A stretch of DNA of 27,582 nucleotides, from IMG/VR virus record IMGVR_UViG_3300030202_001758, positions 1 to 27,582 of that record; one strand, 5' to 3'. The notes beneath the pieces are model-generated. The model did not search any database and was not told the origin of the DNA. It worked only from the letters and a program-made list of their open reading frames with translations. Each line of letters opens with the position of its first letter. The stretch's first letter is position 1. The position numbers and the translations under genes are program-made. Shown here one piece after another: positions 1 through 27,403 of the stretch. The stretch comes from a virus.

Positions 1-294
1 TATTTATTTGATGATTTAGGTAATGTAGATAAAAGCACTTTGTTCTCTACTGATGAAGAAACAGGGGAACGAATTCCCTTGTATCCAAATTTAGGTCAAA
101 TGTCTGAAGGGTTTGCAGAAAAAATGGCAGCAAACCCTGAGTTATATAAAGTTGCAAGTTCAAGTACCGTGTCTTATGGTGGTATGCCCGGAGGAGCAGA
201 AGGATTAGCCCCTAACGGAAATGCTTTTCCAACTGTACAAAATGGGCAGATTAATGAGAATATAACGGAAGAACTTGATCCATTTGATAGATAG
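1..294 (+). CDS. 3' end of an unrecognised phage gene (partial)
   Basis: The reading frame is open from the first base of the window and ends at TAG (292-294), so only the last 97 residues of a longer protein are present. The segment is acidic and Gly/Pro-rich with no motif I recognise, and it ends in ELDPFDR. It lies directly upstream of the large virion-like gene, and the capsid genes follow after that. In phages of this layout a portal or other head-proximal protein would be expected here, but that is inference from position only. A TTG at 40 is in frame, but there is no reason to treat it as the start because the frame continues upstream. The stop codon shares its last base with the palindrome at 294-309. 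Confidence 0.75.
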   Translation, partial: YLFDDLGNVDKSTLFSTDEETGERIPLYPNLGQMSEGFAEKMAANPELYKVASSSTVSYGGMPGGAEGLAPNGNAFPTVQNGQINENITEELDPFDR

Positions 295-309
295 TGGGTC
301 GTGACCCAC
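294..309. repeat. Palindrome copy 1, GTGGGTC-GT-GACCCAC
   Basis: A perfect inverted repeat with 7-bp arms and a 2-bp centre (GT). It starts on the last base of the upstream stop codon and is followed by the SD sequence AAGGA and an ATG 12 bases after its end. It is one of seven such sites in the window. Confidence 0.9.
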
Positions 310-321
310 AAAGGAATTTAA

Positions 322-3300
322 ATGCCACATCATTTAAGAGAATTTTACCAAGATAAAGACTCTAACGAAACAGATTTATCTGTTCCGGGTGAATATGCCG
401 ACATGGAAGTTGCACGTAAAACTCAAATTCCTGCAAGAACTAACTTTGAAATTGATTCTTTTTTAGGTGGTTTAATGCCATCGAGTTTTATTACGGATAC
501 TCTTACTGGCAAATCAATTGATCCTAAAGTAAGAATGGAAAATGAAGAAGCTTTTAAACAACGTGACGCAGAGTTAGCACGAAATCTTTATGTTGGTAGA
601 GCTGAAGCAGAACCCGGAGTAAGAGAACGAATGGTTCAAGAAGGATTACCTAATTGGGTAAAGGGATTGCAGTATGGTGCAAATGCTTCACAAGGTACTC
701 CATCTGCAGCAATGGCTTTACAGTCTCCAACATATGCAAAAGATTTTGGTACAGCAGTTGGAACTGCAATGACTCCAATTAATTATGTAAGTAGTATGGC
801 TGCTGGCCATGTTTTAGATACTTTATCTCCTTTAGCAAATCAAACTGAGGAAGGATTTTGGCATCCTCAAGAAGGGCAACAATTAATTACTCAAGATAGT
901 ATGAGTAATCCAACAGCTGTTTACGCTTTTATTGATTATATTGGCAGAACAAAACTTCAAGAATTTGAAGAAAAAAAAGAACAATACAGGAAACAAGGTT
1001 TAAACAGAGCAGAATCAATTAGAAAAGCTTATGACGAAACTGAATTACCTACAGGTGCTAAGTTAGCATTAGAAGTAATTTTTGATCCTCTTGCAACAAT
1101 ATTACCCGGTGGGGTTGCATTTAAAGGTGGTAAAGCACTTGGATCAGTCGGAGCAAAAGTAGGTAAATCTTTTGTTCAAGATATGGATTTTTATGCAAAA
1201 AATTTATACAGAACAGACCCTAGAGTTTTAGTTAACAGCCAAGAATGGCAATCTACATTTGCTCCTAAGTTAAAACAAAGCTTTGATGATTTGTTAAACG
1301 AAAGCGATACTTATATTGACGCTAGAGCATTTGAAGAAGCAGGAACAGGGGTTTATGATCCTAGTAGTCCTACCCAAGCTTTAGGTGCTTCAGATGTGGG
1401 CAGAGAAATTTCAAAACGTAATGCTTCTGAACGATACGCTAATGCACAAGCCGAATCAGAATATATTAGAGATGTTGAATTTCAACAACAATTAGCAAAA
1501 TCAACAGGCATACCAACAGTAAGAGTAGTTAACGCTACACCTGATGTTCCTAGTTATTTATATCCTGAACAACCAATGTTAGCGTTTGATAATTTCTTAC
1601 AAGGTAAAGGTATGTACAGCCGACTAGATACTTCAACTGTAAGAAAATCAAAAGACGGTCAAATTATTTACGCCCAACCTAATGTTATTAGAGAACTTAT
1701 TGGAAAGTCTGCAATAAGAAAAGCTATCCATCCTTCAATGGATAATTTAATTGACCCTAAACAAATTGCATCTTTAGCTACAGGTGAAACAAGAATTTAT
1801 GGTGGAGATAGATTTTTATCAGGAAATGAAATTGAAGATTTATCTAAGTTTTTAACTACTTATGGAGTTGATCCTAGAACTACTACTGATGAATTGTTAA
1901 CAGGTGGTGGGCATTTTCATGTAGATAAATATACTGGTGAAAGACAATTCATTATGGGAGCATATGACGATCCTTCAAAAGTTAGGCGTTACGTTACTTA
2001 TTCTCCTACAACAAGACAATGGGGAATAACAGATTTACCTGAACCTAAAAAGCAATTAATTAATATTGAAACTGGGCGAAACATTAATGAAAGCCTTAAC
2101 AAAATACGAAATAGTTTTGATGGACAAATTGCTGCAGTTGAAGCACAAATGGCAAACGAAGTTGTTGGTTCTGTAGATTACAAACATTTAGCTAGGCAGT
2201 TTGTTGGTTTACAACAACAAAAAATGTATCAAATAAAACGATTAAAAAATAAACCTACTACTGTAGATTCACATTCTGTAGATATAGAACCTAAATATCA
2301 ATTAGAAGAAGTTGAAGATATGATGAAAATGTACGAAAGGTTATATTTTGATCCTAAAGGTGTTGGGGCAAACAAATATAAAGCTAGTCAAAAAACTGGT
2401 TTTACTCATCCTAATGATAGAAATCCTTTTGTAGTAGTTGCTGGAAATGGTGGAAATGATGTTGATGGTAGTAACTTTTTTAATTACTACAGGACTGATA
2501 GAACTTTACATGATCAAGTTTTGTTTGAATTTTATGATGGTACTGTTCCTAGTTTCCAACAATCATGGCAAAACGCAGTAAACAAAACTGCAGCTAGTAA
2601 AGGATTGCCAACTCCACCTAACGCTCCCGGAGCAACTTTAGAGTTAGGAGCAACGCCCGGTGACCCTGTTGGGCATATGGATGAACTTATTAATTCAGTA
2701 CCTGATTCTCCAAATGTTAGACAAAGCGTACAAGAAACAAATGCGTTTGGGCGATGGTCAGGAGCAAGAAAAATTGCAGGTACTGAAATTAAAAACTTTT
2801 ATGAAGATGGCGTAAAGTTATTAAAAGAACTTGGCCAAACTCAAATGTATAAAGGCAGACTTGTAATTCCTGAAGAAGTTGGCGTAAAGCTATTAAAGGC
2901 TTTGCATGGAGAAGGAGAAGTTCCTCAAGGGTATCAAAAATTTATAGATCATGTGTTAGAACTTAAAAAACAAGAAGAAGCTGCGTACATAGCTTTTGAT
3001 AACGGAAGTGGTAGTGGGGAAATAGTAAATGCTTTTGTTCAAAACCCTAACTATTTTCCTAGAATGTGGCAACGATTAGACCCAAAAACAAATAAATATG
3101 TAAACGTAGGTGATCTAGACGAAACAACAATTCCCCCTCATTTAAGAGCAAGAACTGACATGAGTTTTACTCAATTGTTAGCAGCTGGTTACAGACCTGT
3201 TTCTTACAACCCATTAGATTTAATGACAATAAGACGAGTTAAGGGAGTTGAACATAGAGAAACAGTATTGTTAGTAGAACGTTTAAAGAAAACAGGAATT

Positions 3301-5691: not shown

Positions 5692-5699
5692 TAATTTAT

Positions 5700-5729
5700 T
5701 TGACAGAACATATATGCTAAACCTAAACT
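5700..5729 (+). promoter_or_regulatory. Possible sigma70-type promoter before the scaffold/capsid genes
   Basis: A perfect -35 TTGACA (5700-5705) is followed after 18 bases by TAAACT (5724-5729), a 4/6 match to TATAAT. It lies in the 84-base gap between the 1789-aa gene and the scaffold-like gene, the only sizeable gap in this part of the operon. The weak -10 leaves doubt. Confidence 0.45.
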
Positions 5730-5775
5730 GTATTCAGAATGTTACAGTAACTCATCAAAAGATAGGAGAAACTCG

Positions 5776-6522
5776 GTGACTACAGACAATACAGATATGA
5801 CATCTGCGATAGATCAAGATCAGGCTCAGCTGGATTCAGTTCAGGAGGGATCACCTCAAACAGAAGACAGTCCGTTAACTGGAGAATTAAGGCAACTGAA
5901 GGAATTGGTTGAAAACCAAAACCGACAAATAGCTGGTTTACAGTCTAAACAAGATAGAGCTTTAAATGCGATACGTAGAGATGCAGAGGATTCTGCACGC
6001 AGGCAATCAGAACAAGCAGCACAAAGATATATTCAGGATTTACCTGAAGAACATCAAGGTGCTTTTAATTCTATGTTGCAAGCAAATCAAGCTTATCATC
6101 AGGAAAATCAAAGACTTAGAGAACAACAAGAAGTGGGTCAAGACCCACAAGAACAAGTTCAATACGCTCAACCACAAGACGAGTGGGATCAAGTTTATGC
6201 AATTCCTAGAAGTTTAGGTATTGATCCACAGAGTCCGGGTATCGACTATAAAGCTTTTACTGATCCCGGTTTAGACGAGACTCAACGTAGAGATAGATTC
6301 TTTGCTAGTTTAAAACCTTTGATGGGTGCTACCAATCAGGCATCTACTGGTCAAGCTAGTCAGGCATCAACATCACAAATACAGAGCCCACCAACAAGTG
6401 GCACTCCTGCAAGTGGTGCATCTTCTAACATGAGGTCATTAGATCAAGTACAAGCAGCCTACATTGAAGGTCGCTTATCAAAACAAGAATATCAAGACCA
6501 ACTTAATAGGTTTGGTCAATAG
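5776..6522 (+). CDS. Putative capsid scaffold protein
   Basis: 248 residues starting at GTG, which is chosen because AGGAG lies seven bases upstream and no ATG is better placed. The protein is strongly polar, very rich in Gln, and acidic in its first 30 residues. A helical or coiled-coil part is likely (about 35-120), then a low-complexity Gln/Ser/Thr stretch (about 190-220), and a short C-terminal helix ending SKQEYQDQLNRFGQ. Size, composition and position directly before the major capsid gene are those of phage scaffolding proteins, whose C-terminal helix usually contacts the coat. No protease motif is visible. It contains a perfect copy of the window's 16-bp palindrome in mid-gene (6133-6148), which codes for part of VGQDPQ. 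Confidence 0.65.
   Translation: MTTDNTDMTSAIDQDQAQLDSVQEGSPQTEDSPLTGELRQLKELVENQNRQIAGLQSKQDRALNAIRRDAEDSARRQSEQAAQRYIQDLPEEHQGAFNSMLQANQAYHQENQRLREQQEVGQDPQEQVQYAQPQDEWDQVYAIPRSLGIDPQSPGIDYKAFTDPGLDETQRRDRFFASLKPLMGATNQASTGQASQASTSQIQSPPTSGTPASGASSNMRSLDQVQAAYIEGRLSKQEYQDQLNRFGQ
6133..6148. repeat. Palindrome copy 2, GTGGGTC-AA-GACCCAC, inside the scaffold gene
   Basis: A perfect 7-bp-arm palindrome embedded in the coding sequence, read as VGQDPQ. The same 16-mer, in the same reading frame and also giving VGQDPQ, occurs on the opposite strand at 25215-25230 in an unrelated gene. Confidence 0.9.
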
Positions 6523-6531
6523 GAGAATAAA

Positions 6532-7416
6532 ATGGCAACAGGACTATCTTTGTCTAGTACGTCTAATTTGACTAATGGACAACGCATAATGATTGCGTCT
6601 GCGAAAGAAGCTTTTGAGCCCGCAGCACCTGATCCTGATTTAATTGAGAGTGAAAGAATCCCAACTGGAACAAAACAATGGGATATCAGCACATATGCTC
6701 GATTAACAGATGCACAGGCTTTAACTGAAGGTGTTGATCTTTCATCAGTTCAGCAACTTGCAACTAACACACTACAATTGACACCAGCTGAACACGGCAT
6801 ACTTGTTACATTGTCAAACCGACTTATTAGAAGGCAAGGCGATAGTAGCGTAGTAACCGTAGCAGGGCGTCAAATTGGTGCGTCACTAAGACGCAGAATG
6901 GCTAAAGATGTTATCGCTCTATATGATGGCTTTTCAAAGTCAGCACCCGGAGCAACTAATGCTTTAGACATTACACACTTTAGAGGTGCAGTAGCCTACT
7001 TAATGACTGATAACAATTCGTCATTCGGCCCGGCTCCTATGCCTGTAAATGCTGCACTGCACGTAGAACAGATTTCAGACATCATAGCTGACATTACCGA
7101 CACTGCTCCAAGAGGAACAACAACTGGTTTATCTGAAGACCTTATTCAAAGGTGGTACAGAGGATCAGACAGACTTTACGGTGTTCCAATTGTTCATAGT
7201 GGAAATATCCAAAGAGACAGTGGAGACGATGCTAAAGGTGCAATATTTGCATCTGAAGCTTTGTACATGGTTATTGCTAGTGATGCCGATGTAACCGAAG
7301 AAGATGACAATTCTCTCAGAGCGAAAGAATATGGAATCTTCCAAGAATGGGCTGAAGGCGAAAGAGCCGATGCTCACGGTGTTGAAATCTTTTCTGACGC
7401 AGCAGCAACTATCTAA
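6532..7416 (+). CDS. Major capsid protein (HK97-like fold)
   Basis: 294 residues, with SD AGGAGA and ATG. The sequence has the general pattern of HK97-fold coat proteins. There is a short N-terminal arm, a region about 40-75 where substrate-like beta strands alternate (TGTKQWDISTYARLTDAQAL), a long helix (about 110-130, RQIGASLRRRMAKDVIALYDGF), and a central A-domain-like part with small Ala/Gly-rich helices. A C-terminal beta hairpin follows (YGIFQEWAEGERADAHGVEIF). It lies immediately behind the scaffold-like gene and ahead of decoration-like genes, the usual order. The identification rests on this pattern and context rather than on a catalytic motif. The length is typical for small tailed-phage coat proteins. 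Confidence 0.75.
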   Translation: MATGLSLSSTSNLTNGQRIMIASAKEAFEPAAPDPDLIESERIPTGTKQWDISTYARLTDAQALTEGVDLSSVQQLATNTLQLTPAEHGILVTLSNRLIRRQGDSSVVTVAGRQIGASLRRRMAKDVIALYDGFSKSAPGATNALDITHFRGAVAYLMTDNNSSFGPAPMPVNAALHVEQISDIIADITDTAPRGTTTGLSEDLIQRWYRGSDRLYGVPIVHSGNIQRDSGDDAKGAIFASEALYMVIASDADVTEEDDNSLRAKEYGIFQEWAEGERADAHGVEIFSDAAATI

Positions 7417-7428
7417 TCGAGGTGATTT

Positions 7429-8049
7429 TTGGTTAATGACGTAAAAGAATATCAGGGCGAGTTACCATCTTCTAGAGAAAGGCAACGTATCGTAAACGAA
7501 AGTGGACGAGATGCTGTTATGTTTGACGTTACATCCGAAAGTAACAAAATAAAGTTATGGGATTTAATTGATAACACTTGGACTGCTCCTTTAGAAAGAG
7601 ATACAGCTATGAATCATTATCTTAGAAAGATGGTTTATAAATGTTCTGTTTGTACAGAAGCATCTTTGTTTGAAGATGATATTAAACGTCATCTTGCACA
7701 AGTAAAATCAGGGCATGAGACTCATGCTGATGCTGAATTAATAAGAGGGATTGCCGAACATGGTCAACCTTCTACTACTTGTTCAGGGTGTGGTGCTCCG
7801 ATGTCAATGCGTAAGAATCAAGGTCAACGACATATAGATGGTATTAATGATAAATACGATACCCATACAGAAGCAGGGGATGTAAACATATTACTTACTC
7901 ATAGATATACAACATCACCTTCGGTGTCAATGCCTGAACAAATTGTTGAAACAATACAGTTTGGTGGCGAAAAACCTGTCGTACAACAGGAGAGTCGGAA
8001 CGCAACCGAAGTTATACGTAAACCTCGCAAGCGTAGAAGGAGAAGATGA
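7429..8049 (+). CDS. Virion-region protein with C2H2-like zinc finger
   Basis: 206 residues beginning at TTG, supported by the SD GAGGTGA (7419-7425) and the absence of a usable ATG. Residues about 66-92 read YKCSVC, then F, I and H, and then a further H: Y-x-C-x2-C-x5-F-x3-I-x2-H-x7-H, close to the classical C2H2 finger apart from the long His-His spacing. A second CSGC pair follows about 35 residues later (near 120-123). The C-terminus is a basic tail (RKPRKRRRRR). Zinc and nucleic-acid binding is therefore likely. The position directly after the capsid gene suggests a head or head-completion role with DNA contact. The stop overlaps the next start by ATGA. Confidence 0.8.
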   Translation: MVNDVKEYQGELPSSRERQRIVNESGRDAVMFDVTSESNKIKLWDLIDNTWTAPLERDTAMNHYLRKMVYKCSVCTEASLFEDDIKRHLAQVKSGHETHADAELIRGIAEHGQPSTTCSGCGAPMSMRKNQGQRHIDGINDKYDTHTEAGDVNILLTHRYTTSPSVSMPEQIVETIQFGGEKPVVQQESRNATEVIRKPRKRRRRR

Positions 8050-8768
8050 TGACTACCAAAACTCAAAAACTGCCAACTATCGATGCTTGGGATTATTTTT
8101 TAGAAGACGATTCAGCATCAGAACACGTTGAAAAGTTTAGAGAGTGGGAATGGCCACAAATGCGACAACAGTTGCAAAACGACTATGATTACAAAATAGG
8201 CGTGGGTCAAGAACCACATTGGGTAACACCCGGTACAGCTGTCCTTTACCATGAAGTAATTAACATTAGTTACGGTAGAGAAGAGAATACTGGTTGGCAA
8301 CCCACTAATCCGTTACCAATAAGTAACGCTGTACAGTTATTAAATTATCTTAAGAAGGGTTTCCGACTCCGGGCTAATGTTGACCCATTAGTTGACGTTG
8401 AGTTGTTAGAGACTGCCGATTCCACCGAAGGTGATCCGTATGAGAATACTCCTTATGTAGTCCCTACTGCTAAAGGACATCGTAAATTTATTAATTGGGA
8501 TGCTTATAGAAATTATTGTATGAATCGTGGTATTGCCCCAACACTTGAACCACCAAAAGAAATTTTGGACAAGATGGGAAAATATGAATATTACTGTTTA
8601 ATTCATGATCATGGATTTGATAATGAAAGAGCAGTTAAACAACACAGATCATACTATATAGCAAGACCTCCTAGAGGGAGGGGTATATCCCATAGTACAA
8701 TTGAGCAGATGAAGGTTACAAAACCCAAGTCTACTCAAACTAAAAAAACAACAACTAAATCAGAATAG
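8046..8768 (+). CDS. Virion-region protein with degenerate C2H2-like finger
   Basis: 240 residues. The start ATGATG overlaps the previous stop by four bases, so translation is probably coupled. The body is rich in Trp and Tyr and unrecognised. Near residues 185-207 the pattern Y-x2-C-x2-H-x12-H (YYCLIHDHGFDNERAVKQH) resembles a C2H2 finger with the second Cys replaced by His. The tail is Lys/Thr-rich (KPKSTQTKKTTTKSE). It may act together with the preceding zinc-finger protein in the head or neck, but no specific function can be assigned. A one-mismatch relative of the window's palindrome lies inside it (8202-8217). Confidence 0.8.
   Translation: MMTTKTQKLPTIDAWDYFLEDDSASEHVEKFREWEWPQMRQQLQNDYDYKIGVGQEPHWVTPGTAVLYHEVINISYGREENTGWQPTNPLPISNAVQLLNYLKKGFRLRANVDPLVDVELLETADSTEGDPYENTPYVVPTAKGHRKFINWDAYRNYCMNRGIAPTLEPPKEILDKMGKYEYYCLIHDHGFDNERAVKQHRSYYIARPPRGRGISHSTIEQMKVTKPKSTQTKKTTTKSE
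8202..8217. repeat. Decayed palindrome copy, GTGGGTC-AA-GAACCAC
   Basis: It matches the 16-bp palindrome family with one base changed in the right arm (GAACCAC). It is in coding sequence (VGQEPH), so chance or relaxed constraint is possible. Confidence 0.4.
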
Positions 8769-18894: not shown

Positions 18895-19026
18895 ATGTTA
18901 GGAAAAATAGTATTTGGAATAGCTGCAACAATTATTGCAGTAGAAGCTGTCGAGTTGGCAGTTAAATATAAAACATGGCGTTATTGGGAACGTGCTATCA
19001 AAGACATTCCCTGGCCGATTAAATAG
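18895..19026 (+). CDS. 43-aa membrane micro-protein
   Basis: A short frame with a clear SD (AGGAGA, 18885-18890) five bases or so before the ATG. The product MLGKIVFGIAATIIAVEAVE... has one hydrophobic helix (residues 2-23) followed by a basic, aromatic tail (KYKTWRYWERAIKDIPWPIK). It lies at the head of the small-gene lysis-like cluster. One-helix proteins with such tails occur among phage holin- or spanin-like factors, but no function can be proved. Its stop codon shares the first base of palindrome copy 3. Confidence 0.65.
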   Translation: MLGKIVFGIAATIIAVEAVELAVKYKTWRYWERAIKDIPWPIK

Positions 19027-19041
19027 TGGGTCTTGACCCAC
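19026..19041. repeat. Palindrome copy 3, GTGGGTC-TT-GACCCAC
   Basis: A perfect copy that starts on the last base of the 43-aa gene's TAG and lies 11 bases before the next ATG, with SD GAGGAG in between. The arrangement is almost identical to copy 1 at 294-309. Confidence 0.9.
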
Positions 19042-19052: not shown

Positions 19053-19241
19053 ATGAATAAGTATATTGGGAAGATAAGGCCACAAATATTTTTAGCGTTA
19101 ATTACTCTTGCAGTTATTGCTATCTTAGGAATACAAAATGAACTTACAGAAATAGCTGTTGGTTGTATTGCAGGTATCATAGCTTTAGCAAAAGATGTAC
19201 TTCAAAGCGATAATGATAGTAGTGATGGAGGAGCAGGTTAA
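19053..19241 (+). CDS. Putative holin (62 aa, two hydrophobic helices)
   Basis: The start is the ATG at 19053 because GAGGAG precedes it at good spacing. The in-frame GTG at 19026 lies inside the palindrome and has no SD. The product has a short basic N-terminus (MNKYIGKIRPQ), a hydrophobic helix at about 12-28 (IFLALITLAVIAILGI), and a second one at about 34-48 (IAVGCIAGIIALAKDVL). An acidic, flexible tail follows (QSDNDSSDGGAG). Two-helix proteins of this size are typical of small holins, and its neighbours fit a lysis cassette. No endolysin is nearby, which weakens the assignment. It ends in a TAATG overlap. Confidence 0.55.
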   Translation: MNKYIGKIRPQIFLALITLAVIAILGIQNELTEIAVGCIAGIIALAKDVLQSDNDSSDGGAG

Positions 19242-19674: not shown

Positions 19675-19712
19675 CACCCCTCTACAAGGCTCGTACAGCG
19701 TTTTATTTAAAC

Positions 19713-19736
19713 GAAGTGGTACTTGTATACCACCTC
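19713..19736. terminator. Hairpin between the converging arms
   Basis: GTGGTA (19716-19721) and TACCAC (19728-19733) form a 6-bp stem with a 6-base loop, extendable by two pairs across one mismatch. It lies where rightward and leftward transcription meet. The U-runs are poor on both strands (ATTCTTT rightward, TTTAAAT leftward). It is a weak, possibly bidirectional terminator. It overlaps the last codon of the leftward 58-aa gene. Confidence 0.4.
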
Positions 19737-19911: not shown

Positions 19912-20275
19912 GTACTTTAAAAACCTCCATAATTAATTTAATCTGATTCTTATGGGGCACTCGGTGGTATTCAACTTCCATACCTACAACGTGTTCAGGG
20001 TTATCGTCTTTGATAATCCCCTCGATAGCTAAACAATCTTGAGCATACTTCATGCCAGTAATCAAGTTGTCTATATCAATCGGTCTTCCCGCATAAAACG
20101 CAGTGTATTTTATTTTTACTTTTCCCATACATCCGGGATCTACTTCTCTAAGCTTGGCTATTGTTGTGTCTTGTAATATTTTCTTTGGCTTTATTTTCCC
20201 TGTCCAATGTGTTCGACTATTTCCACGCAACTCTTTAGGTGGCATATCGTCAAACTGTATTTTAAATTTATCCAT
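19904..20275 (-). CDS. rusA: RusA-family Holliday junction resolvase
   Basis: 123 residues from the ATG in the TAATG junction with the upstream gene. The in-frame ATG at 20284 is rejected because an SD (AGGATGG) fits the inner start better. Near residues 65-91 the family signature is clear: RPIDIDNL (D67, D69, N70) and IKDDN (D90, D91), matching the metal-binding acidic residues of RusA, with the helix between them (GMKYAQDCLAIEGI). RusA cleaves four-way junctions symmetrically during recombination and replication, and it resolves branched DNA before packaging. The neighbours (helicase-like ATPase, annealing protein) fit this. The length is near the usual 120 residues. Confidence 0.85.
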   Translation of the reverse strand: MDKFKIQFDDMPPKELRGNSRTHWTGKIKPKKILQDTTIAKLREVDPGCMGKVKIKYTAFYAGRPIDIDNLITGMKYAQDCLAIEGIIKDDNPEHVVGMEVEYHRVPHKNQIKLIMEVFKVHD

Positions 20276-20637
20276 TACCACCATCCTACTATTTTTTTAT
20301 CTAATCCATACTTCAAAACAACTTGGTGATCTTGCACACATTTAAAGATTGTGCTTAGATGCCTGTCCTTGTGATACCCATGTGAAGTTTTAATCATGTA
20401 CTGATTACAGTATGGACAACGTGGTCTAAGCTGAATCGTTGATCCTTTCTCAGTGACATGTGAAAAAACAACTAATGGTTCTTTACCTTCTTGTCTAATA
20501 AGTTGAATGTTTCCTTTGAACGCTTCTAATTTTGCACCAGTACGCTTTTTAGGTATGTAAGTTTCTTTACCACATGTAAAGCATTGGTAACTGTCTTGAT
20601 TAAAAATTACTTTTCCATCACATCTATCGCATCTCAT
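20275..20637 (-). CDS. Double zinc-ribbon protein (120 aa)
   Basis: An ATG start behind GAGAGGGA. The N-terminus carries CDRC (residues 3-6) and CFTCG (19-23), a four-Cys zinc ribbon. A second possible zinc site is CPYC (74-77) with C and H later (FKCVQDH). Basic residues are spread between them. Such ribbons bind DNA or RNA or hold complexes together. Placed between the helicase-like gene and RusA, it is probably a replication or recombination accessory, but no specific role can be assigned. Confidence 0.75.
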   Translation of the reverse strand: MRCDRCDGKVIFNQDSYQCFTCGKETYIPKKRTGAKLEAFKGNIQLIRQEGKEPLVVFSHVTEKGSTIQLRPRCPYCNQYMIKTSHGYHKDRHLSTIFKCVQDHQVVLKYGLDKKIVGWW

Positions 20638-20651
20638 ACTTCCCTCTCATT

Positions 20652-20715
20652 CTTACCCTATAGCACTACCCCCCCGTAGGGGGGGTGCATTAGGTAAGAG
20701 GTAAAAACTTACCTA
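20652..20715 (-). promoter_or_regulatory. Nested, mutually exclusive hairpins in an intergenic leader
   Basis: On the leftward transcript TAGGTAAG (20715-20708) can pair with CTTACCTA (20698-20691). Alternatively CTTACC (20698-20693) can pair with GGTAAG (20657-20652) and enclose a strong 8-bp stem, ACCCCCCC/GGGGGGGT with a 3-base loop (20668-20686). The two outer stems share a strand and exclude each other. No U-run follows. The leader ends at the SD of the 120-aa gene, so an attenuator or RNA-processing site is possible. Confidence 0.5.
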
Positions 20716-22076
20716 TTACTATGTTCTGATTGATATCCCATATTCATTTTAGGTTTTTGTTTAACTTCTTCATTGGCATTGTATTCGTCTTGCAATCTCG
20801 AATAAGTGTGATCCCAATAACCATTACCCAACTTAACCAAAATGTTTTTCTTTAGACCTGTGTTTAAATTTTTACTAATAATATTATTAGCCACTGACTC
20901 TAAGCTGTAGAAGTCAATGACGGTTTGAATTCTAATTCCTTCAAACGGCCTTCTAATATCTTGCTTTCTAGTTTCATTAATCACGTTTATTATTTTATCC
21001 ATCCAACTCATGTTCTCCATTAACGCATCATTGGACGATATATCAATCCGTTCTACTTCAACCTTCTTTGCAATTCTTGGGTCATCAAAAGTAAACCTCA
21101 ACCCTATGGGTCTTTCTCCACCACCTGAGTTAAATTTAGTTTGATGAAGTGCAAACTCTTTTACTTTATTGTCATAGGTTTCGCCCGCTTCTATAACCCA
21201 AATGTTTCTTGCTTCGTTCCACCAAAATATAGAACCAAAAGGTTTGCCATGACCCTTGTCTTTGGCATCATCCTTACTCACGTGACCTATGGTCAATGAA
21301 GTAATTCCAGCGGCAGATAATGCATTAAAATAATCGAGTGCTGTTCCTGATTTTTCAGGTTCACCACCCGCCGCAGGAGCTGCAGAGTCTATGATGACTA
21401 GTGTTATATCTCTCTCGTCTATGATCTCTAGTAATCTCTCTACATCCATAGGAATTGATTGAGACATTCTTCTGTAGTCAAACTGAGGTTGCTTGATGTT
21501 GAGTCCTTCACACAAAGCTTTGAATCTTGCGTTCATGTCTTGTGCATCTGATTCGTAATCAAGATATAAAACTTTTCCGGGTTCAGGTGTAAACCCTTGA
21601 TGAGTGTGACCCGCCGCCATAAGTACAGCAAAGTAAAGTGACACCCATGACTTACCAAGTCCACCATTACCATAGAATAAGTTTGCTTGGTTCTGTAACA
21701 AGAATGGTTCAATGGCAAATCTTGATGACTCGGACAACTCTAGTTCACGCAAGTCTTGAACAGGTGAGCCTTGTCTCTTTGTGTCTCGTACAGCTGAACA
21801 TGCATCATCAATTGCCATCTCCCAAATCTCAACCTCAGGAACTTTTCCAGTGCAACTTTTTACAGCTTGACCAATACTTGTGGGTGAATTTAAGTTGACT
21901 CTTCTGTCAAACAAAGACTTCTTTTTTGATGAATGTTTTATAATAACTTCAGGTCTTGGATCACCACGATCAGTCTCAAAATTATGGAACTTCATCCATA
22001 TTCCTTCGTATCTCTCATCCCCTGTAAATGTAACAGTAAACCCTAACCCTGATTTTGTAATAACAATATCACTCAT
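20709..22076 (-). CDS. RecA-like ATPase / replicative helicase of the RepA (AAA_25) type
   Basis: 455 residues, ATG behind AAGGAAAG and overlapping the upstream stop by eight bases (ATGAGTGA). The P-loop is GNGGLGKS (136-143), Walker B is TLVIIDS (225-231), and a sensor-like His lies in LTIGHVSKDDAKDKGHGKPFGS (262 onward). This order and spacing match the RepA/AAA_25 branch of the RecA superfamily, ring helicases used by phages and plasmids. The first 115 residues form an extra N-terminal domain, and about 370-455 form a C-terminal part, possibly helix-turn-helix-like. It probably unwinds DNA at phage replication forks. No DnaB- or primase-type domain is seen. Confidence 0.8.
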   Translation of the reverse strand: MSDIVITKSGLGFTVTFTGDERYEGIWMKFHNFETDRGDPRPEVIIKHSSKKKSLFDRRVNLNSPTSIGQAVKSCTGKVPEVEIWEMAIDDACSAVRDTKRQGSPVQDLRELELSESSRFAIEPFLLQNQANLFYGNGGLGKSWVSLYFAVLMAAGHTHQGFTPEPGKVLYLDYESDAQDMNARFKALCEGLNIKQPQFDYRRMSQSIPMDVERLLEIIDERDITLVIIDSAAPAAGGEPEKSGTALDYFNALSAAGITSLTIGHVSKDDAKDKGHGKPFGSIFWWNEARNIWVIEAGETYDNKVKEFALHQTKFNSGGGERPIGLRFTFDDPRIAKKVEVERIDISSNDALMENMSWMDKIINVINETRKQDIRRPFEGIRIQTVIDFYSLESVANNIISKNLNTGLKKNILVKLGNGYWDHTYSRLQDEYNANEEVKQKPKMNMGYQSEHSNR

Positions 22077-22314
22077 AAACTTGCTTTCCTTTGTTTACTT
22101 GCGTGGGTCTAGACCCACTGTTTTTTACTTGTTGTGGTGGTGAGTTATGCATGACTTCGTATAGTTTCTGTAGTGTATCTTCAAGAAGTTTTTCAATGCG
22201 TTCATCTCTTCTCTTGCGTTGTAATTTTGCATACTCGTATTCGCAATACACAGGTGAAACTTTGTAGTCGTGAAGTGTGCAACCATTCTCACCACAATAA
22301 AGTGGTGAGGTCAT
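22069..22314 (-). CDS. Small Cys/His protein (81 aa)
   Basis: Start chosen at ATG 22314 in the TAATG junction with the annealing-protein gene. An ATG 12 bases further upstream lacks an SD. MTSPLYCGENGCTLHDYKVSPVYC gives C-x4-C-x2-H-x8-C, a possible zinc site. The middle is a charged helix (AKLQRKRRDERIEKLLEDTLQKLYEV). Near the C-terminus the palindrome copy 4 is read as SGSRPTQ. It lies between annealing protein and helicase, so a replication accessory is likely. The family is unknown. Confidence 0.65.
   Translation of the reverse strand: MTSPLYCGENGCTLHDYKVSPVYCEYEYAKLQRKRRDERIEKLLEDTLQKLYEVMHNSPPQQVKNSGSRPTQVNKGKQVYE
22103..22118. repeat. Palindrome copy 4, GTGGGTC-TA-GACCCAC
   Basis: A perfect 16-bp palindrome in the 3' end of the 81-aa gene, 26 bases before the start codon of the helicase gene on the leftward strand. 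Since the centre is TA, the whole 16-mer is fully self-complementary. Confidence 0.9.
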
Positions 22315-23426
22315 TACTCCCACCATACTATAGAGTCATCATCTAAGACAATGTCCATAGCCTTTCTCATTAAACCACCGACTGTTGTTACCCCATGTAT
22401 ATCCATCACACTTTTAATATCTTCAACATTATTGTTTGTATTAAAGATGTTTATCATAGCAACATTGGCATCATTAAATGTGTTACCCAAGATAAGCCAT
22501 AAATAGTTTATGCCAATCTCTTTAGGTATCTTGCCTGTGTGACTATCACCTAACATAATTGGGTAGCCTTCATTAACCATGTGACAGTATCTGCCATAGC
22601 CATTAGCATTTTGTAAGGCATAGTTTTTAACCTCTTCTTTTTTAAGGTTAACAAGGTCAGGGCTGTGTCCTCTCTCTGCTGTGATCCAATGGCCATAGCC
22701 TTTGTATTTTTCAAAACTCCAAGCTTCATTATGCAAAGGACACCAATACAAATCAGCAACATCACGATCATCAACTTGAGGTTCTTCTTCCACTACCTCA
22801 TCTTCAAACAAAGGTTGGGGTTTAAACTCATCTTCAATCGACCATTCTTTCTGCTGTTTAACAGGGCTCTTAGGCTCAGAGACAGCTTTAATCTCAGTCT
22901 TGGTAGTGTTGCCTATGTCTCCATTATCAGACACAGTTATTTTTGTTGCATGAGGTATGGTTTCTGTCTCTGTTTCGTCTAGCCAACCAAGACCACAAAC
23001 TCTTAACACTGCCCTACGAGATGCTTTGGTTTCTGCCTTCATCAATTGGTTTGAAAGTGCATCACCTTTAAGTCCTTCTATGGACACAACACCTGACGCA
23101 TCAGCAAACCGACCTGTTGCATCTGTTGCTCTGTAAACAACAATGCGTTGTCCTTCTATTGTTTCGGTGCTTCGCATCTCTAGTGAGAGATTATTGATCC
23201 TTGCTAACTGTTCTGTAGCATCCTTAGTTGCATACAAAGTTAGCTTTCTGTTTAGTTCTATGTACTGAAATGGTCTAGTTAAAGGGTTCAACCCTAGTGA
23301 ACTACATACAGCTTGTACATACTTCATTCTCTCTTCAGGTTTTAATTGCTTTAAGTCTCCTTCAAGAACTACCTTCTCTAGTAACTCTGCTCCTATAGCA
23401 TCTGCTTGTGGTATAAGCTGTGTCAT
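22314..23426 (-). CDS. Putative single-strand annealing recombinase (RecT/Rad52-like) with C-terminal extension
   Basis: 370 residues. The ATG overlaps the previous stop (ATGA). Residues about 25-155 have the order seen in phage RecT/Rad52-superfamily annealing proteins: a helix with YVQAVCSSLGLNPLTRPFQYI, then LYATKDATEQLARINNLS, a beta segment (RIVVYRATDATGRFADASG), and the helix NQLMKAETKASRRAVLRVCGLGWLDE. A flexible acidic linker (about 165-225) leads to a second domain (YWCPLHNEAW ... GHWITAERGHSPDLV) with Cys and His that may bind metal. Such proteins coat and anneal ssDNA with an exonuclease or helicase partner. The neighbours RusA, RepA-like ATPase and an HTH protein fit. The exact subfamily is unsure. 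Confidence 0.6.
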   Translation of the reverse strand: MTQLIPQADAIGAELLEKVVLEGDLKQLKPEERMKYVQAVCSSLGLNPLTRPFQYIELNRKLTLYATKDATEQLARINNLSLEMRSTETIEGQRIVVYRATDATGRFADASGVVSIEGLKGDALSNQLMKAETKASRRAVLRVCGLGWLDETETETIPHATKITVSDNGDIGNTTKTEIKAVSEPKSPVKQQKEWSIEDEFKPQPLFEDEVVEEEPQVDDRDVADLYWCPLHNEAWSFEKYKGYGHWITAERGHSPDLVNLKKEEVKNYALQNANGYGRYCHMVNEGYPIMLGDSHTGKIPKEIGINYLWLILGNTFNDANVAMINIFNTNNNVEDIKSVMDIHGVTTVGGLMRKAMDIVLDDDSIVWWE

Positions 23427-23596
23427 TCTGTCACCTCTTGCCTTTCTTCTATTTTTTGTATGTCAGATGCTTTGAATCGAATAGTTCCGTTAAACTTACT
23501 GAAACTTATCGCTCCTTCAGCCATCCATCTGTCGATAGTACCTATCGTTACGCCTAACATTTCTGCCACTTCTTTTCTACTGTAATACTGTTCCAT
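23423..23596 (-). CDS. MerR/excisionase-type HTH protein (57 aa)
   Basis: The ATG overlaps the previous stop as TAATG, and the TGA overlaps the next start as ATGA. The product MEQYYSRKEVAEMLGVTIGT... continues IDRWMAEGAISFSKFNGTIRF and KASDIQKIEE. This is the compact winged HTH of the HTH_17/excisionase group: helix (RKEVAEML), turn, recognition helix (GTIDRWMAEG), then the wing (NGTIRF). Such proteins act as recombination directionality factors or small transcription regulators. No integrase is in the window, so a regulatory role in the early operon is equally likely. Confidence 0.85.
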   Translation of the reverse strand: MEQYYSRKEVAEMLGVTIGTIDRWMAEGAISFSKFNGTIRFKASDIQKIEERQEVTE

Positions 23597-24024
23597 TAGA
23601 TCACCCTTTTGTATTCCATTCTGAACGCTTCTTCAAACCTAGCGTTCTTAATTGTCCGACCTATTTCACCATTGCCATCTTTACGTTCTAGTACAGCTAG
23701 TTGTTTACCATCCCAAGACTCAGGGTGAGTTACTGTTTCTTCCCATTTATCTTTGAATACTTTTTTTAATACATCAGTGGGTAACATTTCTTTTAAAGAA
23801 TTTAGTTGGGTTGCATCAAAAGTTCCTGATCTGTTGGGGATCTTTTTTAATCCAACTGTATAACTGTCACCTTCTACTACGAAAGTATCAATGTATCCCT
23901 TTGAGTCTTTCTCCATCAGATCAAACTGTAACTCTCTATCTATTTCGTACTGTGCCAACTTTAGTATTTCTATCTGCTTGTCTAGCAGTATTCTTTCTTT
24001 TACTTTCTCTTCTATGGAAGCCAT
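23596..24024 (-). CDS. Unrecognised early protein with N-terminal coiled coil (142 aa)
   Basis: An ATG start with a strong SD (AAGGAG, eight bases upstream). The first 40 residues form a charged helix (EEKVKERILLDKQIEILKLAQYEIDRELQFDL). A beta segment follows (DTFVVEGDSYTVGLKKIP), and then a basic C-terminal half. It is the first gene after a 70-base gap and leads the group HTH, annealing protein, Cys/His protein and helicase, so it may be a replication or recombination accessory. I do not recognise a family. Confidence 0.7.
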   Translation of the reverse strand: MASIEEKVKERILLDKQIEILKLAQYEIDRELQFDLMEKDSKGYIDTFVVEGDSYTVGLKKIPNRSGTFDATQLNSLKEMLPTDVLKKVFKDKWEETVTHPESWDGKQLAVLERKDGNGEIGRTIKNARFEEAFRMEYKRVI

Positions 24025-24066
24025 AAAATCTCCTTGTGCTATAATTAATCTACTCCGTTGTGTATG

Positions 24067-24094
24067 GGGGGTAACTTAGTGTTGGTTATCCCCC
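24067..24094. terminator. GC-rich hairpin after the Mom-like gene
   Basis: GGGGGTAAC (24067-24075) pairs with GTTA-T-CCCCC (24085-24094), giving nine pairs with one bulged base and a 9-base loop. It begins two bases after the stop of the Mom-like gene on the leftward strand. No U-run follows, so it may act as a processing or stability hairpin, or as a factor-dependent terminator. Confidence 0.45.
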
Positions 24095-24095
24095 T

Positions 24096-24758
24096 CTACA
24101 ACATTGAAATCTGTAACGGAACATCAGATTCGTTTACATACTTCTCACTATCTCCTTTGGGATATGGTTCTATTGGGTAGTTCAAACAGTCCAACAACTC
24201 CCTTTTTTGTTTACGATTTCCTGTGATGTACACATACCTATGCTTTCTAGGTCTATCAATCATTGCAAACCTATCGTCTTCTTGGCGTTGCTCTAGTGAG
24301 TAATGCCTAACTACGCTACGACTGTGGCTGTTGACTCCTACCTCTCGCCATTCGGTTCTCTTGGCTGATAGTCCTGTGTATATAAAGTTAGTTGCTTGAT
24401 AAATGTAGCCAACGTGATTCATGCTAGTGTCTGCATATGACACAACAATCAATGGTTTAGGTAACATCTTTAGTGTTTGTGCTACAAAGTATGACGCTAG
24501 ATTTTTATCGTGTCCGTCTATCATTGATAGTCTGTTTAGTTCTACCACTTTGTCTTTGTGTTCTTGACCACAAATTCCAACTGTTAAACTTGGTGAAGCT
24601 GGTATGCCATATGTGATTACACCTTGCATTACATGCTCTACAAAAATTCCGTAAGCATGCACAATAGATGGGATTCTTTTTGCATAGTGCTTGTTAAGTA
24701 GCCATGTATGTGTGGTGTCAAATGGTATAGCCAATACCTTCCAACTTTTATTACTCAT
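24096..24758 (-). CDS. Mom-like DNA modification enzyme (GNAT-fold family)
   Basis: 220 residues, ATG with SD GGAGAA and a promoter candidate just upstream (24777-24805). The order of conserved blocks follows the Mom family of phage Mu and its relatives: LLNKHYAKRIP (20-30), a beta hairpin (YGIFVEHVMQGVITYG), VELNRLSMIDGHDKNLAS (72-89), VVSYAD (105-110), and NHVGYIYQATNFIYTG (114-129). Mu Mom adds a modified group to adenines and so protects phage DNA from many restriction enzymes. A GNAT-like acyltransferase fold was predicted for the family. Anti-restriction by DNA modification is therefore the likely role. The remaining C-terminal 70 residues (DRPRKHRYVYITGNRKQKREL) are basic and could contact DNA. 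Confidence 0.75.
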   Translation of the reverse strand: MSNKSWKVLAIPFDTTHTWLLNKHYAKRIPSIVHAYGIFVEHVMQGVITYGIPASPSLTVGICGQEHKDKVVELNRLSMIDGHDKNLASYFVAQTLKMLPKPLIVVSYADTSMNHVGYIYQATNFIYTGLSAKRTEWREVGVNSHSRSVVRHYSLEQRQEDDRFAMIDRPRKHRYVYITGNRKQKRELLDCLNYPIEPYPKGDSEKYVNESDVPLQISML

Positions 24759-24776
24759 AGTGTTCTCCGTCTAAGG

Positions 24777-24805
24777 ATTGTATCATATGATTTGATATTA
24801 ATCAA
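24777..24805 (-). promoter_or_regulatory. Promoter for the Mom-like gene
   Basis: On the leftward strand TTGATT (24805-24800) is followed after exactly 17 bases by TACAAT (24782-24777). This gives 4/6 and 5/6 matches to the sigma70 consensus. It ends 18 bases before the start codon. The -35 lies inside the palindrome 24794-24809, so a repressor there would block it. Confidence 0.5.
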
Positions 24806-24809
24806 TATC
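24794..24809. promoter_or_regulatory. Palindrome over the -35 of the Mom-gene promoter
   Basis: GATATT-AATC-AATATC, a perfect 6-bp inverted repeat with a 4-bp centre. It overlaps the end of the 67-aa gene and covers the proposed -35. A second small palindrome ATCATATGAT (24782-24791) follows inside the spacer. An operator is possible, but AT-rich palindromes also arise by chance. Confidence 0.35.
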
Positions 24810-25001
24810 ATTTATCTTGTCTTGATCTTCCATCTCTTTCTTAAATTTATCGTTAAGCAATTCGGTTTCGTGGCTTGCAATAAGTTTGTTTTTCTTTACA
24901 AACTCTTCGTCAGTTTCCTCAATATCTGTTCGTCTGACGTTGGATAAAATGTCAATGGCCGTTACTAAATGATGCATCCTGAATTGTTCAAAGCTACCCA
25001 T
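24798..25001 (-). CDS. Small acidic protein (67 aa)
   Basis: The ATG overlaps the previous stop by eight bases (ATGGGTAG). The product is helical and strongly charged (ETDEEFVKKNKLIASHETELLNDKFKKEMEDQDKINDID), without cysteine or membrane segments. Its end overlaps the promoter region of the Mom-like gene. Function unknown. Coupling to the zinc-ribbon gene suggests a shared role. Confidence 0.6.
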   Translation of the reverse strand: MGSFEQFRMHHLVTAIDILSNVRRTDIEETDEEFVKKNKLIASHETELLNDKFKKEMEDQDKINDID

Positions 25002-25437
25002 GTGGTTCTCCTAAATTTTTAACTAGTTTGTCTACTAATGTTTGTATCTTGGTAAGTAAATTCTTTTTGTCTAACTTGTAGTTCCAATAGAACTCATACA
25101 GTTCTTCATCTGAATGATCTGACTCTAAAAATTTATCACGATTACTGCCAAGTTCTATAAGTTTTCGGTTCAGTTCCATGACATCATCAAAGTCTTTTTC
25201 GCTTGGGTATGGTTGTGGGTCTTGACCCACTTGATTGTTCCACCATTCAGATTGTTCTACTCTACGGATTCTTTCTAGTAAAACTAAGCCATTGCATGTG
25301 TCACAGACTTGCCCTTCTACTAAAGGTTGTCCGTTGTTGCCATGACCATGTTCTACCTCTGTGCATACTCCACATTGAAACATATCAACTTCTTCTAATT
25401 CTTTTTCTTCTATCCAATCATTACCTTCGTGACTCAT
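24994..25437 (-). CDS. Zinc-ribbon protein (147 aa)
   Basis: The start is placed at ATG 25437, with SD AGGTGGG seven bases upstream. The in-frame GTG at 25449 overlaps the previous gene without an SD. Residues 22-25 (CGVC) and about 45-48 (CDTC) form a zinc ribbon with His residues between. The C-terminal half is helical (DDVMELNRKLIELGSNRDKFL; LLTKIQTLVDKLVKNL). The palindrome copy 5 lies inside and is read VGQDPQ, as in the scaffold gene. Unknown function in the early operon. Confidence 0.7.
   Translation of the reverse strand: MSHEGNDWIEEKELEEVDMFQCGVCTEVEHGHGNNGQPLVEGQVCDTCNGLVLLERIRRVEQSEWWNNQVGQDPQPYPSEKDFDDVMELNRKLIELGSNRDKFLESDHSDEELYEFYWNYKLDKKNLLTKIQTLVDKLVKNLGEPHG
25215..25230. 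repeat. Palindrome copy 5, GTGGGTC-TT-GACCCAC (reads AA centre leftward)
   Basis: A perfect copy in mid-gene. On the coding (leftward) strand it is GTGGGTC-AA-GACCCAC followed by AA, identical in sequence, frame and 3' flank to copy 2, although the host genes are unrelated. Confidence 0.9.
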
Positions 25438-25439
25438 AC

Positions 25440-25856
25440 TTACACCCACCTTGACTTATGGATTATTAATACGTTCCCAAATAATGTGTGACCTTCAAAG
25501 TAAAGTGATGATACATTTGGGGGTAGGTCTTCGAGCATGCCTTCTTCGTTTACAAGGATCACAAAGTCTTTCCATTCACTAGCTTGATCAGGGATTAAAG
25601 GCACTACTTGTATCAACCCACCTACTTCTTTTTGCATTTCTTCTAATGTAAAAAACTCTTGATTCTCAGCAAAAACAAATTCAATGGATACTATCCAATC
25701 ATTACCTTGAGTAGCTGTAAAAGAATCTGAATTGTCTATGGGTTCACTAGTTCTGATAACTACAGATGGGCGTTCTTGTGGGTCTATATAATTGTATCCA
25801 CCATCTTTGAACACATCAAGAAAAGTTTCTAATTGTTTCTGTGATTGACTACTCAA
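25440..25856 (-). CDS. DUF3846-domain protein
   Basis: The best start is TTG 25856, with AAGGAG six bases before it and an 8-base TTGAGTAG overlap with the upstream stop, the junction style seen elsewhere here. Starting at ATG 25892 would need a 44-base overlap and has no SD. From about residue 75 the sequence GGLIQVVPLIP ... FVILVNEEGMLEDLPPN ... LFGNVLII has the block order of the DUF3846 family (GGyIevvpl, NEeGkl..LPpN, GnvlI), common in phages and plasmids. The N-terminal half is an unrelated extension. No biochemical function is established for the family. Confidence 0.75.
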   Translation of the reverse strand: MSSQSQKQLETFLDVFKDGGYNYIDPQERPSVVIRTSEPIDNSDSFTATQGNDWIVSIEFVFAENQEFFTLEEMQKEVGGLIQVVPLIPDQASEWKDFVILVNEEGMLEDLPPNVSSLYFEGHTLFGNVLIIHKSRWV

Positions 25857-26181
25857 TGTCTTCTCCTTTTGTCCATTTTCTATATGCATCAACAGTTCCT
25901 ATCTCTGACATTTTGTCTATTCGTTCTTTGGTTTGAATAGATAGTTGAACATGCTCTAGGTTTGGTAGTGAGGGCATCACCCAATTCAATTCCTCTACTG
26001 AGAAACTTGAATAATGTTCCATGATTATTAGCAATAGGTTTTCTTTTATCGTTGCTTCTTCGAGTATCTCATTGATACTTCGCTTGTCATGGGGTAAAAC
26101 TTCCGTTGACCAAAAGTATTCTATGTCATGTTCAGGTGGGTCTGTTGCTAAAAAGTCTCTGATCTTACTTACTAAATCCAT
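25849..26181 (-). CDS. Unrecognised early protein (110 aa)
   Basis: ATG with a good SD (CAGGAGAA). Helical and acidic, with several Trp and His residues (EHDIEYFWSTEVLPHDK; FSVEELNWVMPSLPNLEHVQL). No cysteine clusters or membrane segments. First gene after the leader that carries palindrome copy 6. Function unknown. Confidence 0.65.
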   Translation of the reverse strand: MDLVSKIRDFLATDPPEHDIEYFWSTEVLPHDKRSINEILEEATIKENLLLIIMEHYSSFSVEELNWVMPSLPNLEHVQLSIQTKERIDKMSEIGTVDAYRKWTKGEDIE

Positions 26182-26231
26182 ACTATTCTCCTGTTATTGT
26201 GTATGATTTTTGATATGTACATGGTGCGAAT

Positions 26232-26247
26232 ATGGGTCATGACCCAC
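26232..26247. repeat. Palindrome copy 6, ATGGGTC-AT-GACCCAC (one mismatch)
   Basis: It differs from the family only in the outermost base (A for G at 26232). It contains the stop codon (TGA) of the 68-aa gene on the leftward strand and lies 50 bases before the ATG of the 110-aa gene. Confidence 0.8.
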
Positions 26248-26443
26248 TTGGAAATCTGTTGCCATAGTACATACGCTGATGTTCACAGTATGTGTTCATG
26301 TGATATGCCCTATTGCCACAGTCAAAACAAACTACCGATCTTGCATATGGCTTTCTATAATCAGGTTGTTTCTTACCTATGTAAGTAACCCAGTTTAGAT
26401 GCACATGTTCTGTAAATGGTAGTTGATATTGGTAACTAACCAT
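26237..26443 (-). CDS. Small aromatic Cys/His protein (68 aa)
   Basis: ATG preceded by AAAAGGAGTAG, a strong SD. CFDCG (residues 39-43) with H48, C53 and H55 (YHMNTYCEHQRMYYG) suggests a small zinc-binding domain. Tyr and His are unusually frequent. Its leader holds a 17-bp palindrome and the left inverted repeat of the gene upstream. Function unknown. Confidence 0.65.
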   Translation of the reverse strand: MVSYQYQLPFTEHVHLNWVTYIGKKQPDYRKPYARSVVCFDCGNRAYHMNTYCEHQRMYYGNRFPSGS

Positions 26444-26473
26444 ACGCTACTCCTTTTGATTTGTTTGACGCTC

Positions 26474-26490
26474 TGAATCAATTTGATTCA
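26474..26490. promoter_or_regulatory. 17-bp palindrome in the leader of the 68-aa gene
   Basis: TGAATCAA-T-TTGATTCA, 8-bp arms with a single central base. It overlaps the outer end of the left inverted repeat (26481-26509). Possible operator for the gene that follows leftward. Confidence 0.5.
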
Positions 26491-26509
26491 TACAAAGTCA
26501 CTGAGAGTG
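26481..26509. repeat. Left copy of a 29-bp inverted repeat
   Basis: Its reverse complement begins CACTCTCAGTGACTTTGTAT and continues GAATCAAAT. It pairs with 27314-27342 at 27 of 29 positions, the two differences being G/A. It starts seven bases beyond the stop of the gene it brackets. Confidence 0.8.
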
Positions 26510-26515
26510 GGCTGA

Positions 26516-27298
26516 CTAAGCCTTGATTAATTCTTTCTCGGTTTCTTTTTGTTCTTTTAGTTCTACTAGTTTCTGAATCTGCTTAAACTCATGCGAATAC
26601 ACTGGCTTAATTTCTTTGTTACATTCCCCACATACTGCGTAAGTTTTTAAGTTGGGTTCTTTACCATCTGCAAATTGCCACTTACGAAGTTTGTTCTCTA
26701 TGCAACCCTCCCTACATTGGTACTTGATCTTCTCAGGTTTGGGATCACTGTCATGATCTTCTAACTGTTTCTCTGCACCACTGCTAATTGGGATAGATTT
26801 TCTAATTATTTCTAGTGTATCTCTGTGTTGTGTTGCTAGTGCTTTTACTGCATCATCAATAACAATTTTAGAATCAGAACATTTGAAGCCTAGAGTAGTT
26901 GCAATCTCTCTAAATTCTTTGGTCAACTTACCCTTTGAATGTTTGTGGGGGATTTTGTTTTCGTTAAGAATAAGAGCAATTGAAAGTTTAATAATTGATG
27001 CCATTAAAGCATTGTAATTACCTTTCCTAAGTGTTGGGTGTAGTAACCAAACTATAACTGTCCATGCGTTATCAATTCCGTTGTCTTGGATCAATGCAAC
27101 TTCGGAATTTTCTTGGTGTTTTTGTTGGTTAGTTGTACCTTTAGCTGATGGATCGGCGTAAACTTTTGTGGTTAACTTGTCTAATACTTCAACTTTTTTG
27201 ATGTCTAAGTTTGAGAATATCGCATTAGCTAATGTAAATAATGCATTGCTAAATCCTGATATTTTGTTAGTGGTGCTGTCTACAAATGTATTTTTCAT
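26516..27298 (-). CDS. Unrecognised 260-aa protein with C-terminal zinc ribbon, bracketed by inverted repeats
   Basis: Start placed at ATG 27298 (AAGGG seven bases before). An in-frame TTG at 27340 with AGGAAG in front would add 14 residues and cannot be excluded. The N-terminal part is mixed. The middle (about 75-175) is helical with hydrophobic stretches (IDNAWTVIVWLLHPTL, LMASIIKLSIALILNENKIPHKHSKGKLTKEFREI), not long enough for sure membrane anchors. Near the end C-x3-C (CREGC) and CGEC form a likely zinc ribbon, followed by a charged helix. First gene of the early operon. It lacks transposase motifs despite the flanking 29-bp inverted repeats. Confidence 0.75.
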   Translation of the reverse strand: MKNTFVDSTTNKISGFSNALFTLANAIFSNLDIKKVEVLDKLTTKVYADPSAKGTTNQQKHQENSEVALIQDNGIDNAWTVIVWLLHPTLRKGNYNALMASIIKLSIALILNENKIPHKHSKGKLTKEFREIATTLGFKCSDSKIVIDDAVKALATQHRDTLEIIRKSIPISSGAEKQLEDHDSDPKPEKIKYQCREGCIENKLRKWQFADGKEPNLKTYAVCGECNKEIKPVYSHEFKQIQKLVELKEQKETEKELIKA

Positions 27299-27313
27299 TG
27301 GATACCCTTGATG

Positions 27314-27342
27314 CACTCTCAGTAACTTTGTATAAATCAAAT
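27314..27342. repeat. Right copy of the 29-bp inverted repeat
   Basis: CACTCTCAGTAACTTTGTAT continued by AAATCAAAT. It lies in the 5' leader of the 260-aa gene, 15 bases before its ATG. In the transcript the two copies could pair and enclose the whole gene. Confidence 0.8.
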
Positions 27343-27387
27343 CTTCCTATTCAGTTTTGCATATGTTCTTATCGTCCTCCTCATAGT

Positions 27388-27403
27388 GTGGGTCTGTACC
27401 CAC
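27388..27403. repeat. Palindrome copy 7, GTGGGTC-TG-TACCCAC (one mismatch)
   Basis: One base differs in the right arm (T for G). It lies 16 to 31 bases downstream of the proposed -10 of the leftward promoter, that is, about +10 to +25, a position where a bound protein could block transcription. Confidence 0.8.

Follow-up and report, generated by a model that had tools for sequence, protein, structure and literature searches.

A dispersed palindrome near gene starts, private to one uncultivated low-GC phage

Dispersed palindromes at gene starts have been described in actinobacterial phages and have never been explained. In Cluster EG Microbacterium phages (Hyperion, Squash, OneinaGillian) the repeated element is an 18-bp inverted repeat, GATCAACC-NN-GGTTGATC (PMC7302621). 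Its copies are located 14-22 bp upstream of starts, in phages that have neither a repressor nor an integrase (PMC7302621; PMC9224216), and have been likened to the repeats of Cluster O (PMC7302621). The latter, found in mycobacteriophages such as Corndog, are 17-bp dyads, TGTTCGG-NNN-CCGAACA, for which the authors proposed dimeric DNA-binding proteins and a process other than transcription initiation (PMC4351075). Three further systems are relevant here. The stoperators of Cluster A are asymmetric 13-bp sites oriented with transcription (PMC4351075). Cluster K mycobacteriophages carry Start Associated Sequences in two forms: the SAS, asymmetric and placed over the ribosome binding site, and the ESAS, an imperfect inverted repeat of 17 bp whose variable spacer is longer (PMC3203893). 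The SPBRE of Bacillus phage SPbeta are promoter-located sites bound by MrpR (PMC10516654).

Here we analyse a palindrome, GTGGGTC-NN-GACCCAC, that is repeated in an uncultivated virus of bacteria from a low-GC phage group. The stretch of DNA examined, referred to below as the window, is an IMG/VR virus record of 27,582 nt.

Copies, sequence and distribution of the palindrome

A pattern search of the window found five perfect copies and three copies with one mismatch, at the eight coordinates listed in the original prediction (Table 1). That prediction had counted five perfect, two one-mismatch and one decayed copy; the five perfect copies stand, whereas the supposedly decayed copy at 8202 has just one mismatch. 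Its statement that chance copies are essentially excluded agrees with dinucleotide shuffles of the window, in which 0.27 matches are expected at up to three mismatches, and with third-order simulations (n = 300), which produced no copies at up to one mismatch. When families of palindromes with identical arms were sought de novo, the GTGGGTC-NN-GACCCAC set was recovered in the window. No family of at least three palindromes with identical 6- or 7-bp arms was found in 73 unrelated viral loci (557 kb).

A near-identical strain (99.7-100% identity) is represented by two contigs, which cover part of the window and extend it leftward by 8,852 bases. The strain contig L095 adds one perfect copy and one outer-base variant, so that the set comprises eight palindromes in the window and two in the strain extension. 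Contig L111, also near-identical, corresponds to the left extension, and its terminal 48 bases match window positions 27535-27582 with one mismatch. Since L111 joins the left extension to the right end of the window, the genome is in all likelihood circular, at about 37 kb, as judged from a short overlap between contigs of different strains. Large terminase, portal and small early genes are on the left extension. In the window, capsid and structural genes point rightward, and RusA-like, AAA ATPase and Mom-like genes point leftward. Scans of the ~37 kb that included Pfam and PHROGs were negative for an integrase, a recognisable repressor, an HTH protein and ParAB. The Mom-like DNA modification gene (24096-24758; Pfam PF25680, E 3e-36) has relatives in 275 phage records. 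In the early operon, two 29-bp inverted repeats (26481-26509 and 27314-27342, 93% complementary) bracket gene 26516-27340 and could possibly delimit an invertible or mobile cassette or form a long-range RNA stem.

Table 1. Palindrome copies and nearby transcription signals, in window coordinates unless prefixed L095
Feature	Position	Strand	Sequence	Placement	Distance to predicted start (nt)
Copy 1	294..309	+	perfect, centre GT	after the stop of a 688-aa gene (TAG 292-294), before the SD/ATG of the gene at 322	12
Copy 2	6133..6148	+	perfect, centre AA	within scaffold-like gene 5776-6522	383 (next start)
Doubtful copy	8202..8217	+	one mismatch	within gene 8046-8768, over conserved peptide GVGQEPHW	
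Copy 3	19026..19041	+	perfect, centre TT	overlaps the stop codon of small ORF 18895-19026; upstream of the ATG at 19053	11
Copy 4	22103..22118	-	perfect, centre TA	in the 3' end of 22069-22326; precedes the ATG of AAA ATPase gene 20709-22076	26
Copy 5	25215..25230	-	perfect, centre AA on sense strand	within gene 24994-25449	
Copy 6	26232..26247	-	one mismatch, outermost base (sense GTGGGTCATGACCCAT)	holds the stop codon of gene 26237-26443; upstream of gene 25849-26181	50
Copy 7	27388..27403	-	one mismatch (sense GTGGGTACAGACCCAC)	upstream of gene 26516-27340	47 (to the TTG start used for this gene)
Strain copy	L095:16368-16383		perfect		30
Strain copy	L095:19340-19355		outer-base variant	next gene off contig	
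Sigma-70-like promoter	27419..27446	-	TTGACA-16-CATAAT, 11/12 consensus positions	leftward early operon	
Terminator-like hairpin	27544..27569	-		upstream of the 27446-27419 promoter	

The 7-bp arms are near-invariant across nine sense-oriented copies. The outermost C is changed to T twice and C7 to A once, and none of the changes is compensatory. On the transcribed strand an A stands on both sides of most copies, and these flanks are not dyad-symmetric; the A said to precede the site is present at the seven copies originally named and absent at 8202 and at the two L095 copies, both of which have G. The 8202 site lies over a conserved peptide motif, G[VK]GQEPHW, which reads GVGQEPHW here and in the relative L006 and GKGQEPHW in L008, and the palindrome is present in neither relative. 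Because this copy overlies a conserved coding motif whose relatives show no palindrome, it may be coincidental with the coding sequence.

Extending the search to the rest of the genome and to related phages, as had been proposed, yielded the two further copies in the recovered extension and none in relatives. The motif is missing from the relatives found by capsid (12 loci) and by portal (50 loci), among them relatives at 67-90% nucleotide identity, and is missing even where the DNA is 80-90% identical. When the whole viral collection was scanned, each of the other contigs with a match carried a single exact copy, which is at chance level, and in no other record was there a second. The A-flanked form of the motif gave 69 scattered hits in 84,980 bacterial and archaeal genomes, approximately the number expected by chance, spread over many phyla and with two hits in one genome; no multi-copy family of this form was found in the sampled bacterial genomes. 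Two pelagiphages and phage DSL-LC06, in which remote capsid homologues occur, have no palindrome family, and among the relatives' loci only one, G009, has a dispersed palindrome of another kind. From the absence in relatives, the single viral matches and the chance-level bacterial hits we conclude that, by these sequence comparisons, the motif is confined to this phage and subject to rapid turnover.

Placement relative to genes and promoters

On the transcribed strand, six of the eight testable copies precede a predicted start codon by 11-50 nt. The 60 nt upstream of starts make up 7.4% of the genome, which gives P ~4e-6, a value that is approximate because the start codons are predicted. The test omits the L095:19340 copy, whose next gene is beyond the contig end, and the 8202 copy, which lies on the conserved peptide. 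The copies at 6133, a site missing in relatives, and at 25215 are mid-gene. A distance of 11-12 nt to the ATG had been claimed for two copies and is true of those at 294 and 19026. Likewise, the copy that had been placed at about +10 to +25 of the best promoter is that at 27388, provided that transcription starts 7 nt past the -10 box; it is the only copy with a strong promoter nearby. The A-rich 5' flank gives some copies the look of a terminator on the antisense strand, a reading that we rejected, since most copies have poor T tracts.

The divergent intergenic region L095 17940-18625 (686 bp), where the main promoters are expected, contains no copy of the palindrome. Within it are an AT-rich segment and short repeats of CTTACC/GGTAAG, CTATTTCA and ATGTTCTAAAATGTTCT, and the region is a candidate origin or control region. 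Nearby, L095 19005-19377 and L111 8628-9450 show that near-identical strains carry different early genes just past a common SD; the palindrome at L095:19340 accompanies only the L095 version of these genes and not that of L111.

Recognition as duplex DNA or as RNA

We lean towards the view that the palindrome is a repeated site for a dimeric, sequence-specific DNA-binding protein that acts after transcription initiation at gene starts. A dimeric DNA site is the best reading because the arms are near-invariant, no compensatory changes are seen, an inner C/G that cannot pair in RNA is kept, and the Cluster EG analogue is dyad-like. The dimeric site put forward in the original prediction is thus retained, whereas the repressor-run operator or stoperator system proposed with it is not supported. 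Two 7-bp half-sites would flank the free 2-bp centre. Since most sites are in transcribed DNA where genes adjoin, just upstream of an SD, and one is just past the early promoter, the dimer would act after initiation; once bound it could serve as a roadblock or pausing site, tuning, for example, selected genes in both operons, a role distinct from that of a lysogeny repressor. We infer that the form recognised is duplex DNA rather than RNA, that the protein is a dimer of phage origin and that its effect is regulatory. The protein would probably be encoded by the phage itself, in an early gene that lacks annotation. No candidate binding protein was matched to an HTH or repressor family in the Pfam and PHROGs scans, and the structure predictions of two candidate binders (genes 26516-27340 and 20275-20637) had a pLDDT of ~38 and were unusable. 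A DNA-binding protein beyond family recognition is possible among the early genes. The asymmetric A flanks, the G.U outer variants and compensatory changes in the distant relative G009 are evidence against a dimeric DNA site.

The main rival is a hairpin in the mRNA upstream of the SD, which would act on translation initiation or guard the 5' end of processed transcripts, possibly together with a phage RNA-binding protein. We consider it possible but rather doubtful. Association with starts and placement upstream of the SD suit this explanation, as do the A-rich flanks of the sense strand, whose asymmetry is unexpected for a symmetric dimer. As RNA, the palindrome would form a 6-bp stem with a 4-nt CNNG loop; this hairpin is the local fold predicted at all nine copies tested, and the stem of the L095:19340 copy is extended on the sense strand. 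However, the fold z-scores are mostly near zero. Rfam covariance models gave no match in the window. The inner C/G (position 7/10) is kept in eight of nine copies even though a 2-nt loop cannot close in RNA. What is more, the absence of compensatory changes and the two mid-gene copies argue against a hairpin. Both outer-base variants are G.U pairs on the sense strand, which would favour RNA.

In the Cluster EG repeats, the best-known analogue, we re-measured 95 sites from 12 phages, with identical contexts removed. Their inner arms are invariant, the centre is pyrimidine-purine (mostly CG, CA or TG), and the flanks, pyrimidine on the 5' side and purine on the 3' side, are dyad-symmetric. The outer pairs are GC at 73 sites, AT at 7, G.U at 9 and A.C at 6, with no strand preference. 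The dyad-symmetric flanks and the lack of a G.U preference favour recognition of duplex DNA in Cluster EG, a signature that we carry over to the present palindrome by analogy only. With G.U not favoured over A.C in that count, the G.U argument for RNA is weak and we set it aside.

G009 (contig L109, 41 kb; portal 37% identical) bears on the same question. Its own palindrome family, GGAAAGTGTGACACGTGTCACACTTTCC, has nine copies of 20-28 bp in the early region (L109 619-14771), several of them directly upstream of an SD/ATG. Five pairs in this family show double, compensatory changes, which point to a putative hairpin in G009. On the other hand, the single-sided changes of the inner pair give three A.C mismatches on the sense strand, contrary to what a hairpin would predict. 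G009 also has an array of 35-bp periodicity in which GAGGTAACA blocks are conserved (L109 9142-10483), a candidate CRISPR-like or coding repeat.

The remaining explanations are much less probable than either a dimeric DNA site or an mRNA hairpin. A small mobile or recombinogenic repeat, spreading between gene junctions without a regulatory function, seems improbable to us. It would account for the absence from close relatives, for the 20 identical bp that the two mid-gene copies have in common and for copies at mosaic boundaries, such as that at L095:16368, about 30 bp past which similarity to relatives starts. The flanks of the copies are otherwise unrelated, however, and 6133 is no clean insertion, as a relative has a different sequence of similar length there.

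Operators or stoperators of a lysogeny repressor are unlikely, and we rate them slightly below a mobile repeat. Cluster A stoperators are asymmetric and oriented, whereas the present site is palindromic (PMC4351075). Copies are dispersed in both operons and one is positioned just downstream of the best promoter, which would suit such a system, but this is the only copy at a good promoter and none is found in the divergent control region. The repressor had been suggested to be encoded beyond the window; the missing ~9 kb was recovered from the near-identical contigs and contains no recognisable repressor or integrase, leaving a near-complete genome devoid of both. A portal alignment search of 84,980 species genomes found no prophage relative. 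With no recognisable repressor, integrase or ParAB in ~37 kb, a stoperator or immunity function is not supported.

Least probable of all are partition (parS-like) or nucleoid-organisation sites for a phage or host protein: ParB-, SlmA- and MatP-type sites are likewise dispersed perfect palindromes with short spacers, but the genome lacks ParAB, the bias towards gene starts is strong and the A-flanked form makes up no multi-copy family in the sampled bacterial genomes.

Comparison with known repeated elements

The present phage and G009 are distantly related members of one group and have two unrelated palindrome sets. An independent case in an uncultivated low-GC phage, together with the unrelated set in G009, suggests convergent use of such sites. 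Tentatively, and with less confidence than we place in the dimeric site itself, unrelated lytic phages may repeatedly evolve private, genome-wide sets of short gene-start palindromes, each read by the phage's own factor after initiation. If this were true, it would amount to a widespread and unrecognised layer of lytic gene regulation. The set described here offers a concrete test, namely whether duplex DNA or RNA is recognised and which early protein binds.

Unlike the genomes with Cluster A stoperators, the ~37 kb studied here encodes no recognisable immunity repressor. As with the SAS and ESAS of Cluster K, the repeats are tied to the translation starts of some genes; the SAS, however, is asymmetric and sits on the ribosome binding site, and the ESAS is imperfect with a longer spacer. 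The SPBRE, too, recurs at scattered places in a phage genome and is bound by a phage protein, but SPbeta is temperate, MrpR is tyrosine-recombinase-like and no such protein was found here, and the present sites are not in promoter regions, the 27388 copy excepted.

The Cluster O repeats share the 7-bp invariant arms, the variable centre, genome-wide dispersal, some coding copies and the lack of an integrase; they differ in having more than 30 copies, a 3-bp centre, no tie to start codons and a different sequence. Closely analogous are the Cluster EG repeats. Like the present set, these have invariant short arms that enclose a free centre of 2 bp, number about 8-10 copies, most of them shortly before starts, and come from phages with no identified repressor or integrase. 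Their sequence is unrelated and their arms are 8 bp rather than 7 bp; their copies are mostly confined to right-end genes, whereas ours are in both operons and two are mid-gene; and their spacing to starts is 14-22 nt, as against 11, 12, 26, 30, 47 and 50 nt (to predicted starts) here. Because no sequence is common to the present palindrome and the EG or O repeats, it is, on this comparison, their analogue and not their homologue. The set is real, private to this phage and composed of dyad sites at gene starts, and as such it joins a known but unexplained kind of phage element.
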